A stretch of DNA of 64,000 nt from NCBI RefSeq assembly GCF_000425865.1, contig NZ_AUEG01000001.1:248001-312000 (forward strand), written 5' to 3'. This document shows positions 1,014 through 49,102 of this stretch, in pieces. The notes beneath the pieces were generated by a model. It searched no databases. It had not been told where the DNA came from and saw only the letters and a list, made by a program, of their open reading frames with translations. Position numbers and translations under genes: made by a program. This DNA is from Lacticigenium naphthae DSM 19658 (lineage in GTDB: Bacteria; Bacillota; Bacilli; Lactobacillales; Carnobacteriaceae_A). Positions within the stretch are counted from its first letter, which is position 1. Each line of letters opens with the position of its first letter.

Positions 1014-2345
1014 TTAGTTATTTCTCGGTGTAGTTTGACTCAACAATTTTTCGTATGCTTGTTCAAATTTTTGAACATCTCCTGCGCCCATAAATATTAC
1101 GACGCTGTCATGATGTTTGAGTAGTGGAGATACATTATCCTCTAAAAGAATAGTAGCACCTTTAGAAATTTTTTCAGCTAAATTTTGGATTGTAACTTCA
1201 CCTTTCTCTTCACGAGCAGAGGAAAAAATATCACACAAAAATATACTATCCGCTAAATTTAAAGCTTCACCAAATTCACTTAATAGCGCAACCGTCCTCG
1301 TGAAAGTGTGCGGTTGAAATACTGCTATAATTTCTTTGTGTGGGTATTTTTGCCTTGCAGAATCAAGTGTTGCTCTGATTTCTGCAGGATGATGCGCGTA
1401 ATCGTCTATGATGATAACATCTTCTATTGATTTTTCGGTGAATCTTCTTTTTACACCTTTAAAAGTCAATAATCTATCTTGTACTTTTTCCATATCTAAA
1501 TTTTCGTAATGACAGAATGCTATGACAGATAAGGCATTTAGTATTGTGTGTTTTCCAAATGTTGGTATAGTAAAATGACCAAAAAATTCCCCTCTTACAT
1601 AAACATCAAATGAGGAACCTTCTTCAGATCTCGTCACATTTTTAGCTCGAAAATCATTAAATTCAGAAAAACCATAATATATAACGGGAACGGGAGCTGC
1701 TAACTCTCTTAATCGACTGTCATCTCCACAAGCAAAAATTCCTTTTTTAACCTGCTTAGACAATTGTTCGAAAGCAGAAAAAACATCATCTATATCAGAA
1801 AAATAATCTGGATGATCAAAATCAACGTTTGTGATAATAGCATAGTCCGGATGATAAGCCAAGAAATGTCTTCGATATTCACAAGCTTCTAAGACAAAGA
1901 AATCCGCATTTTGGATGCCTTTTCCGGTCCCATCTCCAATAAGATAACTTGTTTTTTCAATTCCGCTCATAACGTGAGATAAAAGACCGGTAGTGCTTGT
2001 TTTTCCGTGAGAACCTGTAATAGCTATGCTAGTATAATCATTCATGAATTCGCCTAGGAAATCATGATAGCGTAATACTGGAACACCTAACTCCTTGGCT
2101 CTCACAATTTCTTCATGACTATCTGGGAAAGCATTCCCAGCAATTACAGTCATCTTTGGTTTGATGTTGTCCTTATCAAAAATCAACATAGGAATCTGTT
2201 CTTCTTCTAAATTCTGTTGTGTAAAAAAATACTTTTTGATATCTGATCCTTGCACTTTGTAACCTTTATCATGCAATAGTAAGGCCAAAGCACTCATACC
2301 CGATCCTTTAATTCCCACAAAGTGGTAAAGAGTGTCTTGATTCAT
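1014..2345 (-). CDS. murC: UDP-N-acetylmuramate--L-alanine ligase
   Basis: MurC adds the first amino acid, L-alanine, to UDP-MurNAc in cytoplasmic peptidoglycan precursor synthesis, using ATP. The 443-residue length is normal for the family. The N-terminal Rossmann part shows [11 protein letters not shown], the ATP-binding P-loop is [12 protein letters not shown] near residue 110, the central Mur ligase domain has [10 protein letters not shown], and the C-terminal domain has [10 protein letters not shown] and FQPHTFTRT. The start has a strong TTGGAGGAAA site. It is the last gene of a pepA-ytpR-relic-murC run and is followed by a terminator. In B. subtilis the neighbouring upstream genes are ytpR and sftA (ytpS), which matches this layout except for the relic. 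Confidence 0.97.
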
Positions 2346-2468: not shown

Positions 2469-2924
2469 TCATTCTGTTTTATCTGAAAATAAACTAGACA
2501 TGTTTTTATTCCTAGCTAATTGATTCTTTTGATCTTCTTCTATAATTCCAGTTAGTGTTTTTTTTAATCCTTTTCTTTTTATCAAACTGGGTGTTTGGCT
2601 CTTCTGTTTTGAAGATTTCTTTAATTTTAGCTGATTTTTCATGAAGTTTTCAAATAATATGAATTCATTTGATGATTTCTTTAAATTATCTTTTAGTGCT
2701 GAATAATTTATTTTTTCGACAACAGGTTTTTGACTATATCCGTAATAAGGTGATGGGATTTTTTTAACTTGAAACGGTGTCGAGTTTCGTTTGTACGAAT
2801 TCTCTTTGCTTATATAATTCGATTGGACTGTTTTTTCTTCAAAATTTTTGGGCAACTCGTGAATAAATTTAGAAGAAAAGAGAGCATTTTTTTCAGTATT
2901 TTTATGCGTTTCCTTATTTACCAT
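2469..2924 (-). CDS. Short basic protein at the sftA position; probable SftA N-terminal relic
   Basis: A 151-codon lysine- and serine-rich, low-complexity protein with no membrane segment, no Walker motif and no domain I can name with certainty. The stretch TPFQVKKIPSPYYGY (about residues 50-64) resembles, from memory, the conserved linker motif (PF-x-x-x-E-V-P-S-P-I-Y-G-Y/F) of the soluble DNA translocase SftA/YtpS. In Bacilli that gene sits exactly here, between ytpR and murC. The whole FtsK-type motor is missing, and only 123 bp separate this stop from murC. The ATG at 2924 is preferred because AAGGAAGAG lies about 8 bases upstream; a longer version from 2951 has no ribosome site. It could be a decaying fragment or a kept short protein; I cannot tell which. 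Confidence 0.6.
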   Translation of the reverse strand: MVNKETHKNTEKNALFSSKFIHELPKNFEEKTVQSNYISKENSYKRNSTPFQVKKIPSPYYGYSQKPVVEKINYSALKDNLKKSSNEFILFENFMKNQLKLKKSSKQKSQTPSLIKRKGLKKTLTGIIEEDQKNQLARNKNMSSLFSDKTE

Positions 2925-2954
2925 GTCTCTCTTCCTTTCTACACTCATCATTTA

Positions 2955-3563
2955 TTACATAAACTTAATGCCTGTTTCGGCATCATCATCTAAAATCAGA
3001 ATCCCTTTTCCTTCTCGATCCGATTCAATATTCAATTCTTTCGCAGAACAAATCATCCCATAGCTTTTTGTTCCTTTTAATTCTCCCGGCCATATGACCA
3101 TTCCGTCAGGCATGATGGCTCCTATTTTAGCTACTACCACTTTTTTGTTTTCTTGAACATTAGATGCCCCACAAACAATTTGAACAATATTTCCATTATC
3201 AATTTCTGTTTGGGTAACATTGAGATGGTCTGACCCTTCAACTGGATGACACTCTTTTATTTTCCCTACTACAAACTTTGGTTCGCTATCTTGAATCAAA
3301 GTATAGTCAATTCCTTCTTTTTCTAACAAACCATTGAGCTTCGCTATTTGATTTTGATCTAATTGAAGAGGGCCATTTTTTTCAAACACTAAATAATTTG
3401 AAGCATGAAAAACATTCATTCCCAATATATCGTCTGTATCTTTATCTTTAATAACTACAACGTCTCCAAATTTTTTTGCTTTCTGATCTTCTAATTTGCT
3501 TTGAGAAAACATCAGAATCAAAACATCGTTCAACCCTCTATTGTTATAGGTGCTAATCAGCAT
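2955..3563 (-). CDS. ytpR: YtpR-family tRNA-binding domain protein
   Basis: 202 residues. The N-terminal half (about 1-90) matches the DUF4479-type domain of YtpR, and the C-terminal half (about 95-200) is an OB-fold tRNA-binding module like that of the phenylalanyl-tRNA synthetase beta chain and Arc1/EMAP: VGKIKECHPVEGSDHLNVTQ, then QIVCGASNV, AKIGAIMPDGMVI, ELKGTKSYGMICSAKELNI. The cellular role of YtpR is not firmly established; RNA binding is inferred from the fold. The ATG follows AAGGAGATAAGTAA. It lies 20 bp after pepA, so the two are probably co-transcribed. Confidence 0.9.
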   Translation of the reverse strand: MLISTYNNRGLNDVLILMFSQSKLEDQKAKKFGDVVVIKDKDTDDILGMNVFHASNYLVFEKNGPLQLDQNQIAKLNGLLEKEGIDYTLIQDSEPKFVVGKIKECHPVEGSDHLNVTQTEIDNGNIVQIVCGASNVQENKKVVVAKIGAIMPDGMVIWPGELKGTKSYGMICSAKELNIESDREGKGILILDDDAETGIKFM

Positions 3564-3582: not shown

Positions 3583-4662
3583 TCAAAATTTTCGTTTTAT
3601 CGTATCCAATGTACTTTTATCGAGACTTTTGACAACATGTAAAACCATTTCCTTAGCCGCTGCGTAATCATCTATATGAAATATAGATTGATGGGTGTGA
3701 ATGTAACGTGCGGGAACTCCAATAACACTACTTGGTATACCTTCATTTTGAACATGAGCTGCAACAGCATCCGTTCCTCCCTTGGAAACAAAATATTGAT
3801 AAGGTATATCATGTGTTTCAGCTGTATCCAATAAGAATTCGCGCATACCTTTTTGTAAAATCATTCCCGGATCTTGAATTCTAAGCAGGAACCCTTTTCC
3901 CAATTGACCGAATTCTTCATTATTTCCATTCGCATCGTTAGCAGGTGAACAATCCACTGCAAAAAAAGCATCGGGTTTAAATTTATTCACAGCCCCTTTT
4001 ACGCCTCTAAGACCAACCTCTTCTTGTACGTTAGCCCCTGCTATAAGAGTATTCGGTAATTCCTGATTTTGTAATTCTTTTAGAGCTTCGAGAACAACTG
4101 TTACGCCATAACGATTGTCCCAAGCTTTTCCTAATATTTTTTTCCCGTTTGCCATTTTAATCGTTTCCGAATAAGGAGCTATAGGGTCTCCTGGACGTAC
4201 TCCGTATTCCATTGCTTCTTCCCTTGAGTCAAAACCAGCGTCAAATAGAATGTCTTCTATAGAAAGTTCTTTAGATTCTCCTTTTTTCCCTCTTAGTAGA
4301 TGTGGTGGTACGGAAGAAGAAACACAAGGATAATCTCCTTTTCTCGTCTGCAAAGTAAAGCGTTGAGAAGAAACTACATAAGGATTCCAGCCTCCCATAG
4401 GTAATACTTGGAATAGTCCATTTTTATTGATTCTCGAAACCATAAATCCTACTTCATCCATATGAGCAGCAATCATTAAACGCGGAGCTTGACTATCCTT
4501 ATTTCTGCGGATACCAAAAACTCCTCCTAATCCATCCATTTGCACTTCATCTACAAGTGGTGTCATTTCTTTTTTCATAAAGTCTCTTACTTGATGTTCA
4601 AATCCTGAAACACCTTGAAGCTCTGTAACTTTTTTTATCAAATTAAAAGTTTGGTTATTCAT
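3583..4662 (-). CDS. pepA: M42-family glutamyl aminopeptidase
   Basis: A cytoplasmic metallo-aminopeptidase of family M42 (PepA of lactic-acid bacteria, YtoP of B. subtilis), which removes N-terminal Glu/Asp and other residues from peptides. 359 residues from the chosen start. Metal-binding and catalytic blocks are visible: AAHMDEVGFMV, KAWDNRYG, GANVQEEVGLRGV (Glu-Glu base and ligand), AVDCSPA and a late RYIHTHQSIFH. The ATG at 4662 starts the conserved part (MNNQTFNLIKKV). A further ATG at 4719 lies at the predicted transcription start and is unlikely to be used. The ribosome site AAAGGAGG is unusually far from 4662 because a hairpin lies between them (see hairpin entry). Confidence 0.92.
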   Translation of the reverse strand: MNNQTFNLIKKVTELQGVSGFEHQVRDFMKKEMTPLVDEVQMDGLGGVFGIRRNKDSQAPRLMIAAHMDEVGFMVSRINKNGLFQVLPMGGWNPYVVSSQRFTLQTRKGDYPCVSSSVPPHLLRGKKGESKELSIEDILFDAGFDSREEAMEYGVRPGDPIAPYSETIKMANGKKILGKAWDNRYGVTVVLEALKELQNQELPNTLIAGANVQEEVGLRGVKGAVNKFKPDAFFAVDCSPANDANGNNEEFGQLGKGFLLRIQDPGMILQKGMREFLLDTAETHDIPYQYFVSKGGTDAVAAHVQNEGIPSSVIGVPARYIHTHQSIFHIDDYAAAKEMVLHVVKSLDKSTLDTIKRKF

Positions 4663-4668
4663 AAAAAT

Positions 4669-4687
4669 CCCAACAATATCTATTGGG
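4669..4687 (-). promoter_or_regulatory. Hairpin between the Shine-Dalgarno and pepA start
   Basis: On the minus strand CCCAATA and TGTTGGG can pair (7 bp, one G-U) around a 5-base loop. The hairpin lies between the Shine-Dalgarno AAAGGAGG (4694-4701) and the pepA ATG (4660-4662) and is followed by five T. Folded, it would bring the ribosome site close to the ATG; it could also act as a weak attenuator. Confidence 0.45.
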
Positions 4688-4726
4688 GTCCCGCCTCCTT
4701 TATACTTATTTCTAATCATCTGTTAT

Positions 4727-4755
4727 ATTATACATGAAATACTGATTGTTTTTAA
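4727..4755 (-). promoter_or_regulatory. Promoter of the pepA-ytpR-murC run
   Basis: A perfect -10 TATAAT (4727-4732) with a weak -35 TTAAAA (4750-4755) at 17-bp spacing. It predicts a leader of roughly 55-60 nt before the pepA ATG at 4662. Confidence 0.6.
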
Positions 4756-4770
4756 CTATCTTCTCCCTGA

Positions 4771-4798
4771 TTGTTCTTATTAATTCTGTTTCTAAAAT
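4771..4798 (+). promoter_or_regulatory. Possible promoter of the PepSY-like gene
   Basis: TTGTTC (4771-4776) and TAAAAT (4793-4798) are spaced 16 bp apart, about 60 bp before the ATG at 4860. The area is very AT-rich, so chance matches are likely. Confidence 0.35.
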
Positions 4799-4859
4799 TT
4801 CTATGTTATTATTAAAATAATTAATTAAAGTATTTTTATTATAAAAAGGAGGATTACAC

Positions 4860-5192
4860 ATGATACAAACACCTAAAAAATTTCTAGCAATAAGTGCAAG
4901 TGTATTAATAGGATTGGGCGCTTTACTGGGTTGGACGGGTCACTATTTTTATAGTACTAAAAAAACAATCAATGCTGACGACATTTTAAAGAAAGTTAAA
5001 AAACATTTCCTGGAAGAAGGGCCTATAGAAGGATCTTGGATAGAATTAACAAAAGTTCCTTTACGGAAGTTTGCTTATGATACTGATGTCTACTACGGAG
5101 GGGTTTCTCGTCTAGAAGAAAGCGAGCTTGTGCAATATGAATTCATTGCCGATGCTTACACAGGTAGTATCATGGACTTATACCGCGTATAA
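4860..5192 (+). CDS. Small membrane-anchored PepSY-like protein
   Basis: 110 residues. A hydrophobic segment at about residues 9-31 (FLAISASVLIGLGALLGW...) looks like an uncleaved signal anchor or signal peptide without a lipobox, so the rest should be extracellular. The C-terminal part ends in YEFIADAYTGSIMDLYRV, the typical last strands of a PepSY-type module, a fold found in peptidase propeptides and small secreted proteins. The start has AAAAGGAGGATTACAC just before the ATG. It is divergent from pepA and followed by a strong terminator, so it is monocistronic. Function unknown; any link to the M42 peptidase next door is speculation. Confidence 0.75.
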   Translation: MIQTPKKFLAISASVLIGLGALLGWTGHYFYSTKKTINADDILKKVKKHFLEEGPIEGSWIELTKVPLRKFAYDTDVYYGGVSRLEESELVQYEFIADAYTGSIMDLYRV

Positions 5193-5200
5193 ACTTAATA

Positions 5201-5257
5201 AAAAGACCCCAGCGAAGAATCTGTATTAGCTAAAGATTCTTCGTTGGGGTTTTTTTA
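5201..5257. terminator. Bidirectional terminator between the PepSY-like gene and trmB
   Basis: CCCCAGCGAAGAATC pairs with GATTCTTCGTTGGGG (5207-5249), with T runs on both strands. It serves the plus-strand gene ending at 5192 and trmB on the minus strand. Confidence 0.9.
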
Positions 5258-5280
5258 AAAATAATAATTCCCTTAATTTT

Positions 5281-5922
5281 TCAATTGTTAAAAGTTGCTA
5301 TGACCCGGTAAATGCGGTTTCCTTTTTTGGAAAACTTTTCTTCATATTCAGTCATAATATTTCCCTCAAATGAACTTTCATGTAAATTCAACCAAACTTC
5401 CTTTAAAGTCATTCCGAATTCAGAAAAACTGACAAGAGAATATTCAAATAAATTTTGATTATCTGTTTTTAGAATTAATTCACCTGAATTATCCATAACT
5501 GAAGAATATGATTCGAGGAAGGTGCGATACGTTAGCCTTCTTTTTTCATGTCTGTTTTTTGGCCAAGGATCAGAGAAATTCAAATATATCCTAGCAACTT
5601 CATTTACTTCAAAAAATTCTTTTAAGTTCGCTGCATCAAGTTGTAGTATTTGCAGATTAGGCAATTTTTCTTCTAATTGTTTTTCTAAAACAGATATTAC
5701 TACACTCGTTTGTAATTCGATCCCTATAAAATTGATTTCAGGATATGTTTTGGCCATTTCAACTATAAATCGTCCTTTTCCAGTGCCGATTTCTAAATGA
5801 ATCGGATGAGTATTGCCAAAGCGTTTTCCCCATTTGCCTTTCCAATCAGTTGGATTAAGTGTGACAAATTCTGGATGTTTTTCTAAAAAATCTTTTGCAC
5901 CTGGTTTGTGTCTAAGTCTCAT
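5281..5922 (-). CDS. trmB: tRNA (guanine-N7)-methyltransferase
   Basis: TrmB methylates G46 in the variable loop of tRNA using S-adenosylmethionine. 213 residues, normal for the family. The SAM-binding motif is [16 protein letters not shown] (about residues 42-57), followed by [11 protein letters not shown]; the family signature [16 protein letters not shown] is intact. The ATG at 5922 begins the conserved [11 protein letters not shown] and has AAAGGAGA 10 bases upstream; an in-frame ATG at 5949 has no such site. It follows ytmP with a 67-bp gap, as in other Bacilli where ytmP and trmB are neighbours. Confidence 0.96.
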
Positions 5923-5989
5923 TGCATGTGATCTCCTTTCGTATTCCAAAAAAAGAAATGAGGTCAGTGGGATACACGTAACCTCAATC

Positions 5990-6769
5990 TCATTTTGCTA
6001 AATATTCTTTTAATAACACAATTTTTTCGTTCATTAAATGATAACGTGTTTGATGATGAAATAGTTTTATTTGCTGTATTAAAACAAATAGAACATACCA
6101 GTGAATTCTTTTTAAGAGCATGGGAGAAACGTCTACGCCATAATCCTTTAACCATTTTTCCCAAGCATTTTCTTCAATATAGTTGCTGAATAACATTCCA
6201 ATATCATAAGCAGGATCAGCTAATATTGCCGAATCCCAGTCGACTAAATACAATGTATCTGTTTCGGATTGCAACCAATTTTTTTTATTCACATCCCCGT
6301 GACAAACAGTCATTTCATTTTCAGCAATAGTTATTGAACTATTCTCTAATCTATTTAACCCCTCAATAATTAATGGATGTTGTCTTAAATCTAAAGGTAG
6401 ATCTAATTTTAACGATATCAAAAAATCACTTGGAGCTAGTTTCCTTCCTCCAACTCTTAAAAGCATCCGCCTTAAAGTAGACGAATAATGAATTCTATTC
6501 ATCAGTTGGGCAACCTTTGCTGATGACATCTCATGATTTTTTAATGTCCGTCCATTACACCATTCTTGAGCAGTTAATACATCCCCATTCCCGATTCGCT
6601 TAGTCCATATTAATCGAGGAGTCACTCCTTCAACTGATAATGCTGCTAAAAAAGGAGAAGAGTTTCGCTTCAAAAATAGTTTTTCTTCATTTTTTATTCC
6701 CATATAAGCTTGCCCAGTATCCCCTCCTATGGGGTGCAATTTCCATCCTGTTTCTCGTTCAAGTTCCAT
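5990..6769 (-). CDS. ytmP: YtmP-like phosphotransferase (aminoglycoside/choline kinase fold)
   Basis: 259 residues of the APH-like kinase fold. The catalytic loop is [10 protein letters not shown] (HxDxxxxN type) and the metal-binding Asp is in [17 protein letters not shown]. No membrane segment. In Bacilli this gene is the steady neighbour of trmB; its substrate is not known to me. It is unlikely to be a true antibiotic-resistance gene, because the gene pair is a conserved chromosomal one and the protein is ordinary for these organisms. The start has GGGGAATGAATA before the ATG. It is preceded by a promoter about 175 bp upstream and a structured leader. Confidence 0.85.
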
Positions 6770-46828: not shown

Positions 46829-49102
46829 CTAATCATTTTCACCATCTGGCTTAGAAATATTTACTACTCTAGGCTTGCTTCCCTCAGAAGGACCTACTAT
46901 ACCACGCATTTCCATTTCATCGATCATACGAGCTGCTCGATTGTATCCAATTCGAAAACGACGCTGAAGCAAAGAAATACTCGCTGTCTGCATATCTACG
47001 ATTAATTCAACTGCATCATCAAACAATTCATCTTCTGCTTCACCCTGTGCAGTTTTAGGCTCTTCTTTTGGAATCATTTCTTCCACATAATTAGCTTCTT
47101 GTTGGTTCTTGACAAAGTTGACGACAGCTTCAACTTCATTATCTGAAATAAATGCTCCCTGGACCCGAGTCGGTTTGTTTTGACCCATAGGTTGAAAAAG
47201 CATATCCCCTTTCCCTAGTAATTTTTCAGCCCCATTTGCATCTAAAATCGTCCTTGAATCAGTACCACTTGAAACAGCAAAAGCTATTCTTGATGGAACG
47301 TTTGCCTTTATGATTCCAGTAATAACATCCACACTTGGTCTTTGAGTAGCTAAAATCATATGTATTCCAGCTGCTCTTGCCATTTGGGCTAAGCGAATAA
47401 TAGCATCTTCTACCTCATTACTTGCAACCATCATCAAATCAGCCAGCTCATCAACAATCACAACGATAAATGGGAGTTCAGGCAGAATTTCCTCAGCCTC
47501 CTCATTCTTATGTTTGATAAATTTATTGTATCCCTCCATGTTTCTTGTTCCACTAGCTGCAAACAGTTCATACCGTCTTTCCATTTCTTGAACAACCTTT
47601 TGCAAGGCTTGAGCTGCTTTTTTAGGATTGGTTACAACTGGGGTCAACAAATGAGGAATCCCATTATAGACATTCAGTTCTACCATTTTGGGATCGATCA
47701 TCATCAATTTAACTTCATTCGGTTTTGCCTTCATAAGCAAACTAGTAATTACCCCATTGATACAAACTGATTTACCACTACCTGTTGCACCAGCGACAAG
47801 TAGATGGGGCATTTTGGATAGATCTGCCATAGAAATTTGCCCTGATATATCTCTCCCAAGCGGTACTTCTAACATTTTTTCTTTATTTTTCGTTTGACTT
47901 TCAATCACATCTTTAAAAGAAACTAAACTGACTTCACTATTAGGAACTTCGATACCAATCATCGCTTTCCCAGGAATAGGTGCCTCCATTCGGATATCCT
48001 TGGCTGCTAAGGCCAATGCGATATCGTCTGTTAGTCCTACGATCTTGCTCACCTTTACGCCCGTAGCAGGCTGAATTTCATACTTTGTAACAGCCGGACC
48101 AAGATTAGCTTTGGTGACAGTAGCATCGACTCCGAAACTTTGAAATGTTTCTTCTAATTTCTCTACATTTTTTTGAATAAGGGAATATTCTTGGGACTGA
48201 TCCGTCGGTTCTATTCTATCCAATAGCGTAACTGGCGGTAATGCATAGTCCTCATTTTCAACTTCTCCATTAATCTCAAAATCAACATTAGAATCCTCTG
48301 CTTCATTATTTTTCACTTCTGAAGATTCTTGATAGCTATTAATTTTTAGTTGGCTGGGTTCGATTGTTGCTTGCTTCACGGATTCTTTTTCAACAAACTG
48401 TTTTTTGTCAGATATGCCCTCATTATTTGACTGTTGTTTGTTCTTATCATCTTGCACTACTTTTACTTTTTTGCGACTTTTTCTTTCAGAAAATGATAGA
48501 GCTGCTCTCATTTTCTCTGCAAAAATCTTTCCTGTTTTTTTCGAAAAATCAAAAAAATGTTTAGATGTTTGTTTGTATGGTAATTCGAACAATAAAATAA
48601 TACCACTAGAAAACAATAGAAGTGTAATGAGAAAAGTTCCTATGTGAGAAAACAAAAAATAGCTCACACCATACATAAGAGCACCAATCATTCCTCCACC
48701 TAAAGATTGTGTTAACGTATTTCCTAAAAAGTCTGCTAAAAAAAATCTCCAAGTAGCTACGATTACATTTAGCTGCGGATTAATTACAGGTCCAAAAAGT
48801 CGTGCATGTAGAAAAACAAGTAAGCTGATAAATAGTAAGCTAACTGCAAAAACTTTGTTTTTTGATAGTGTAGGGCTCTTCCCTTTGAACAAAAAAGCAA
48901 TTCCAAAAACAATTCCCAGTATACTTAATACCATATATGCTTCACCTGCAACTAAACGATACATATTAGCAGCTAGTCGACCAACAAATCCCCATCTAGT
49001 TAAAGAAAAGAAACTAATAACTGTCAGAAGCAAACCGAGTACTTCGAAGGGAATCATCCTATTCTTTTTTCTAGGTCTTCCTCGTTTCTTTTTCTGGGCC
49101 AT
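46829..49102 (-). CDS. ftsK: DNA translocase FtsK/SpoIIIE family
   Basis: 757 residues. A basic start (MAQKKKRGRPRKK) is followed by about four to five membrane helices (about 16-170), a charged linker (about 175-275), a RecA-like motor (about 300-670; Walker A GATGSGKSVCING, Walker B FIVVIVDELADLM) and a C-terminal winged-helix gamma domain (about 690-745, ASISLLQRRFRIGYNRAARM) that reads KOPS/SRS-type sequences. It moves chromosome ends through the division septum. It appears to be the only complete FtsK-type translocase in the window; a remnant of the second, soluble type (SftA) lies at 2469-2924. Divergent from acyP. Confidence 0.95.
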   Translation of the reverse strand: MAQKKKRGRPRKKNRMIPFEVLGLLLTVISFFSLTRWGFVGRLAANMYRLVAGEAYMVLSILGIVFGIAFLFKGKSPTLSKNKVFAVSLLFISLLVFLHARLFGPVINPQLNVIVATWRFFLADFLGNTLTQSLGGGMIGALMYGVSYFLFSHIGTFLITLLLFSSGIILLFELPYKQTSKHFFDFSKKTGKIFAEKMRAALSFSERKSRKKVKVVQDDKNKQQSNNEGISDKKQFVEKESVKQATIEPSQLKINSYQESSEVKNNEAEDSNVDFEINGEVENEDYALPPVTLLDRIEPTDQSQEYSLIQKNVEKLEETFQSFGVDATVTKANLGPAVTKYEIQPATGVKVSKIVGLTDDIALALAAKDIRMEAPIPGKAMIGIEVPNSEVSLVSFKDVIESQTKNKEKMLEVPLGRDISGQISMADLSKMPHLLVAGATGSGKSVCINGVITSLLMKAKPNEVKLMMIDPKMVELNVYNGIPHLLTPVVTNPKKAAQALQKVVQEMERRYELFAASGTRNMEGYNKFIKHKNEEAEEILPELPFIVVIVDELADLMMVASNEVEDAIIRLAQMARAAGIHMILATQRPSVDVITGIIKANVPSRIAFAVSSGTDSRTILDANGAEKLLGKGDMLFQPMGQNKPTRVQGAFISDNEVEAVVNFVKNQQEANYVEEMIPKEEPKTAQGEAEDELFDDAVELIVDMQTASISLLQRRFRIGYNRAARMIDEMEMRGIVGPSEGSKPRVVNISKPDGEND

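Follow-up and report, generated by a model that had tools for sequence, protein, structure and literature searches.

SftA (YtpS) of Bacillus subtilis and other Bacilli is a soluble septal DNA translocase, encoded between ytpR and murC. According to work cited in PMC11790237, B. subtilis SftA binds the Z-ring with the support of SepF and FtsA, cells without SftA are slightly longer, and overexpression of SftA in an ezrA mutant blocks division. According to a review of Xer recombination (PMC5357621), it is an open question why some bacteria have two FtsK-like translocases.

In this work we have analyzed a short gene of Lacticigenium naphthae DSM 19658 in a DNA stretch of 64,000 nucleotides (the window). 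It resembles sftA in its location in the ytpR-murC slot, and its product resembles SftA in the PF.P..IPSPIYG motif and in corresponding to an extended, disordered N-terminal region devoid of transmembrane segments. Unlike SftA, the product is far shorter and has none of the FtsK_alpha, FtsK_SpoIIIE and FtsK_gamma domains. The membrane translocase FtsK/SpoIIIE encoded in the same window is homologous to the lost motor half and has no domain in common with the short protein. Our literature search found no description of a motorless SftA, and the gene, including its enterococcal versions, was found in no curated family of Pfam or NCBIfam.

The short gene and its neighbourhood

The ORF (Table 1) comprises 151 codons on the minus strand, from the ATG at 2924 to the stop at 2469-2471, and encodes a basic protein carrying TPFQVKKIPSPYYGY. 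The preliminary description had placed it between ytpR and murC, which was confirmed by the matches of both flanking genes to NF045760 and TIGR01082, respectively. It had also claimed that the motor was gone while the frame was kept, and this holds: the intact frame has no internal stop and its own Shine-Dalgarno sequence, and none of the three FtsK domains was found in the product by the Pfam search. An in-frame ATG at 2951, which starts 3 bp past the ytpR stop, would give a protein of 160 aa; it is the less likely start because the Shine-Dalgarno match is weaker there than for the ATG at 2924 (AAGGAAGAG). A weak terminator-like hairpin is located at 2966-2985 (minus strand) at the end of ytpR, directly upstream of the short gene, and an ORF of 110 aa whose N-terminal segment is hydrophobic lies beside pepA on the opposite strand (4860-5192, plus).

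Table 1 Features of the short gene and its surroundings (window coordinates)
Feature	Position	Strand	Remark
Motorless SftA N-terminal protein (putative), 151 aa	2469..2924	-	main finding
Upstream extension by 9 codons if the ATG at 2951 is used	2925..2951	-	less likely start
Motif TPFQVKKIPSPYYGY, residues 49-63, common to full-length SftA (PF.P..IPSPIYG)	2736..2780	-	
Motif INYSALKDNLKKSSNEFILFE, residues 72-92; family pattern Y..LK..L.K..DFILFE	2649..2711	-	short helices predicted
C-terminal motif GLKKTLTGIIEEDQ...SSLFSDK, residues 119-149	2478..2570	-	predicted helix 124-140
murC, downstream neighbour	1014..2345	-	TIGR01082
ytpR, upstream neighbour	2955..3563	-	NF045760
pepA (glutamyl aminopeptidase), next gene upstream of ytpR	3583..4719	-	
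Genome's only full FtsK/SpoIIIE translocase	46829..49102	-	FtsK_alpha, motor and FtsK_gamma domains

Compared with Pfam and NCBIfam, the window protein matched no family at E 1 or better, and 14 aligned members of the short family gave two weak single-member matches and nothing else. Its predicted structure (mean pLDDT 64.6, pTM 0.20) is mostly of low confidence and mostly disordered, with three helices in an otherwise largely unstructured chain. The remaining full FtsK pointed out in the preliminary description proved to be the sole full translocase of the genome, in which a SepF gene was also found.

Relationship to the N-terminal region of SftA

When 40 relatives were searched, the matches were short ORFs of ~160-250 aa from the window's family (f1, 27 genomes in nine genera) and the N-termini of SftA proteins of 922-981 aa from family f2. 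In profile comparisons (hhalign) the f1 short proteins matched full-length f2 SftA with a probability of 99.7% (E 1.1e-25, 145 columns), Bacillaceae SftA N-termini with 96.2% (E 2.1e-9, 34 columns), and short proteins from f5a, f8 and f3 with 98.3%, 95.9% and 93.8%. Reversed-sequence controls were all below 5% (4.7% for f1 against Bacillaceae SftA) and gave E-values of 0.09 and 0.009 against 1e-25 and 2e-9 for the real profiles, hence the similarity is more than chance and the SftA likeness proposed earlier for the TPFQVKKIPSPYYGY segment is borne out. This segment corresponds to TPFKVQKIPSPYYGF in the full-length SftA of genome G033 and to RPFRPTEIPSPIYGF in full-length Bacillaceae SftA, and the C-terminal motif of the window protein has its counterpart, GLSRSLAGMIEEE, in full SftA of f2. 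The blocks common to the aligned proteins are a start M..YDGPSF, followed by PF.(V/A)..(I/V)PSP.YG, Y..LK..L.K..DFILFE and GL.R(S/T)L..(I/M)(I/M)EEE. The locus agrees as well, since full sftA occupies the ytpR-murC slot in f9 and in those Bacillaceae loci in which both neighbours are visible, as the preliminary description had assumed. Judged by these sequence comparisons, the window gene is almost certainly the SftA N-terminal region without the motor.

The window copy is the shortest in f1 and is without the N-terminal YDGPSF block. The helix-like start (MSWIKK / MGWFKDFFF) and the FRFPLI.D stretch of Bacillaceae-type SftA were observed neither in the window copy nor elsewhere in f1, whereas the start is present in the short proteins of genus g29; with the start absent, the localisation of the window protein could differ from that of full SftA. 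Long low-complexity repeats of the EPEP, QEV and EEPIAPV types occur in the linker or tail of SftA at loci L005/L214 (G033), L082 (G254) and L076 (G172).

Retention of the short gene and repeated loss of the motor

The short gene is present in 26 of the 27 f1 genomes, and its absence from G010 is probably due to an assembly gap, as the murC match is missing there too. The locus comparison proposed in the preliminary description gave the same slot throughout the 22 mapped f1 loci, with ytpR as one neighbour in all of them and murC as the opposite neighbour in 21. Each of the 27 genomes encodes just one full FtsK/SpoIIIE (~760-840 aa); their other PF01580 matches are weaker, lie in separate frames of mostly 258-531 aa and look like mobile-element proteins. 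The dN/dS values (NG86) of the short gene in three unsaturated f1 pairs were 0.114, 0.235 and 0.146, and those of ytpR and murC in the same pairs 0.119-0.150 and 0.017-0.034. The short gene is thus under purifying selection, like ytpR, in the sister genera from which these pairs come; the proposed selection test was positive to this extent, the window's own genus being represented by one genome only. Intact frames across the family together with these values make a retained function, raised earlier as a possibility, very probable.

These data bear on two other explanations. The ORF might be a decaying remnant of a pseudogene that is still open by chance, which would suit the short window copy with its missing N-terminal block; the frames are nevertheless intact family-wide, dN/dS is 0.11-0.24 in the sister genera and separate lineages retain the same SftA region, and we regard such decay as very unlikely. 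The word relic, by which the gene had been described, is therefore wrong: the gene is not peculiar to this genome, and several other lineages carry such genes. Secondly, the persistence of the ytpR-murC slot in most lineages might mean that the segment is kept as DNA, e.g. for murC expression or translational coupling, and not for its protein. Constraint acts, however, at the protein level, and several Enterococcaceae have an intact short gene away from murC (by ~70 kb in G034), which makes a cis-regulatory reason highly improbable.

Outside f1, SftA N-termini without a motor (~110-450 aa) were found together with one full FtsK per genome in Enterococcaceae (f3), in other Lactobacillales families and in one family (f24) from a different order. 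In a translocase census of 295 Lactobacillales genomes, two full translocases were present in all sampled genomes of f2, in those of f7 (probably Listeria) with the exception of genus g29, and in some of f9; one was present in every sampled genome of f1, f3, f4, f5, f6 and f8. Among the lineages lacking the second motor, short ORFs that contain SftA motifs precede murC in f5 (after ytpR), f8, the f3 member G286 and g29, as well as in the f9 members G163, G047 and G278, the latter two being weak by eye. Named examples of short-gene loci are those of Alkalibacterium sp. 20 (L083; f1 genus g3 corresponds to Alkalibacterium), Enterococcus plantarum (L091), further Enterococcus (L087 and L097) and Vagococcus silagei (L156). 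The short members from f6 and f9 are weak and rest on short stretches; the single f6 protein matched the f8 and f3 profiles only (68-79%), through an FRFP stretch. The g29 proteins (280 and 323 aa) retain the helix-like start and IPSPVFGF and matched the Bacillaceae SftA profile with 94.5%; at L184 and L187 they have an additional conserved stretch at the C-terminus, EIQQIARVAAVEMTR.IRSK. No second full chromosomal translocase was found in any sampled genome carrying the short gene, so that neither a short gene beside full sftA nor a lack of SftA likeness, which would have spoken against the proposed origin, was encountered among them. In the f9 genera g50, g43 and g33 (L174, L178, L183, L189) ytpR directly adjoins murC, the motor and the N-terminal gene both being gone; as the entire gene has disappeared from several f9 genera, it is dispensable in some backgrounds.

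An ORF directly upstream of murC in f4 (Streptococcus-type) was considered as a further SftA homologue: it occupies the same slot and its string FPLVADNE is reminiscent of FRFPLIPD. Its profile probabilities were ≤0.7% and it was not counted. At loci L176, L185, L186 and L188 this ORF has 193-224 aa, lies a few bases upstream of murC, and has an FP.VADNE-like start and NNYDFLK.SQIYN near its end.

In an RpoB tree built from 30 Lactobacillales genomes, the short-form genus g29 forms the sister group of full-length f7 (100/100), f9 (100/100) contains both full and short forms, and f1 (100/100) groups with the full-SftA genomes of f2 (93/97). The minimum number of changes between the full and motorless states on this tree is five, with f4 entered as motorless only and not as an SftA homologue. 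The tree by itself cannot separate gain from loss; loss is the natural direction because SftA outside Lactobacillales is commonly full-length, and the presence of full SftA in outgroups and intervening clades points to repeated loss of the motor. In a class-wide search the matching frames outside the order were ~700-1350 aa long, except those of f24 and G450 and a single frame located at the edge of a contig. The many short forms in Lactobacillales could also be taken to mean that the short gene is ancestral and that full SftA arose by its fusion with a motor, but this is extremely improbable given that nearly all matches outside the order lie in long frames, and given the position of full f7 SftA as sister to the short g29 form.

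In f24, from another order, only short forms were found (matching frames of ~236-407 aa), and their dN/dS was 0.13-0.35. Each of the 32 f24 genomes tested has one full FtsK, and four have a second match in a frame of 1732-1735 aa, EssC-like by its size. Eight f24 ORFs examined closely (among them L264, which contains masked bases) lie between ytpR and murC and carry PSPIYG close to their N-terminus and P(V/L)NV.MT close to their C-terminus; in full SftA this latter motif (PxNVxMT) precedes the motor, and the f24 proteins stop there. In G450 (f48) the ytpR-murC slot holds an SftA of 627 aa (L271, G450:C8, ORF 4160-6043, reverse strand) with FRFP and DIPSAVHG motifs retained. Unlike the window protein it has retained a motor-like domain (PF01580, E 1e-11 only), in which the Walker A position reads YGNNEIDSS; FtsK_gamma was not found by the domain search. 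This SftA is apparently motor-dead, and motor function seems dispensable there. Hence f24 adds one further motor loss and G450 an inactivation of the motor.

Putative role of the short protein

Without a motor, DNA translocation by the window protein is not expected. By analogy to B. subtilis SftA, the short protein, which lacks alpha, motor and gamma domains and is predicted to be mostly disordered with short docking motifs, may bind the Z-ring through SepF and/or FtsA and adjust septum assembly, while DNA pumping would be left to the single membrane FtsK. We give this Z-ring/SepF mechanism an even chance. The whole explanation, i.e. a motorless SftA kept as a disordered Z-ring docking protein with FtsK doing the pumping, appears to us reasonably probable.

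The preliminary description had suggested that the short protein might be a partner of the remaining FtsK or act against it. In favour of this, the sampled motorless genomes each have one full chromosomal FtsK and no more, and the SftA N-terminus was formerly joined to a homologous motor. However, nothing in the short protein points to a motor-binding region, the partners of SftA named in PMC11790237 are SepF, FtsA and the Z-ring, and in some f9 genera FtsK is present alone, without the short gene. Either relation to FtsK is therefore unlikely, and docking at the Z-ring is preferred.

More generally, it is conceivable, at slightly less than even chance, that SftA of Bacilli has its conserved core function not in DNA pumping but in a motor-independent divisome role of its disordered N-terminal motifs, the motor being optional and lost many times so that a selected stand-alone protein remains. 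By losing the motor repeatedly while retaining the N-terminus, these bacteria provide a natural experiment that separates the two possible roles of SftA. The short protein offers the smallest conserved piece for Z-ring binding tests in species without any SftA motor, enterococci included, and the N-terminus probably does a cell-division job independent of the DNA pump.
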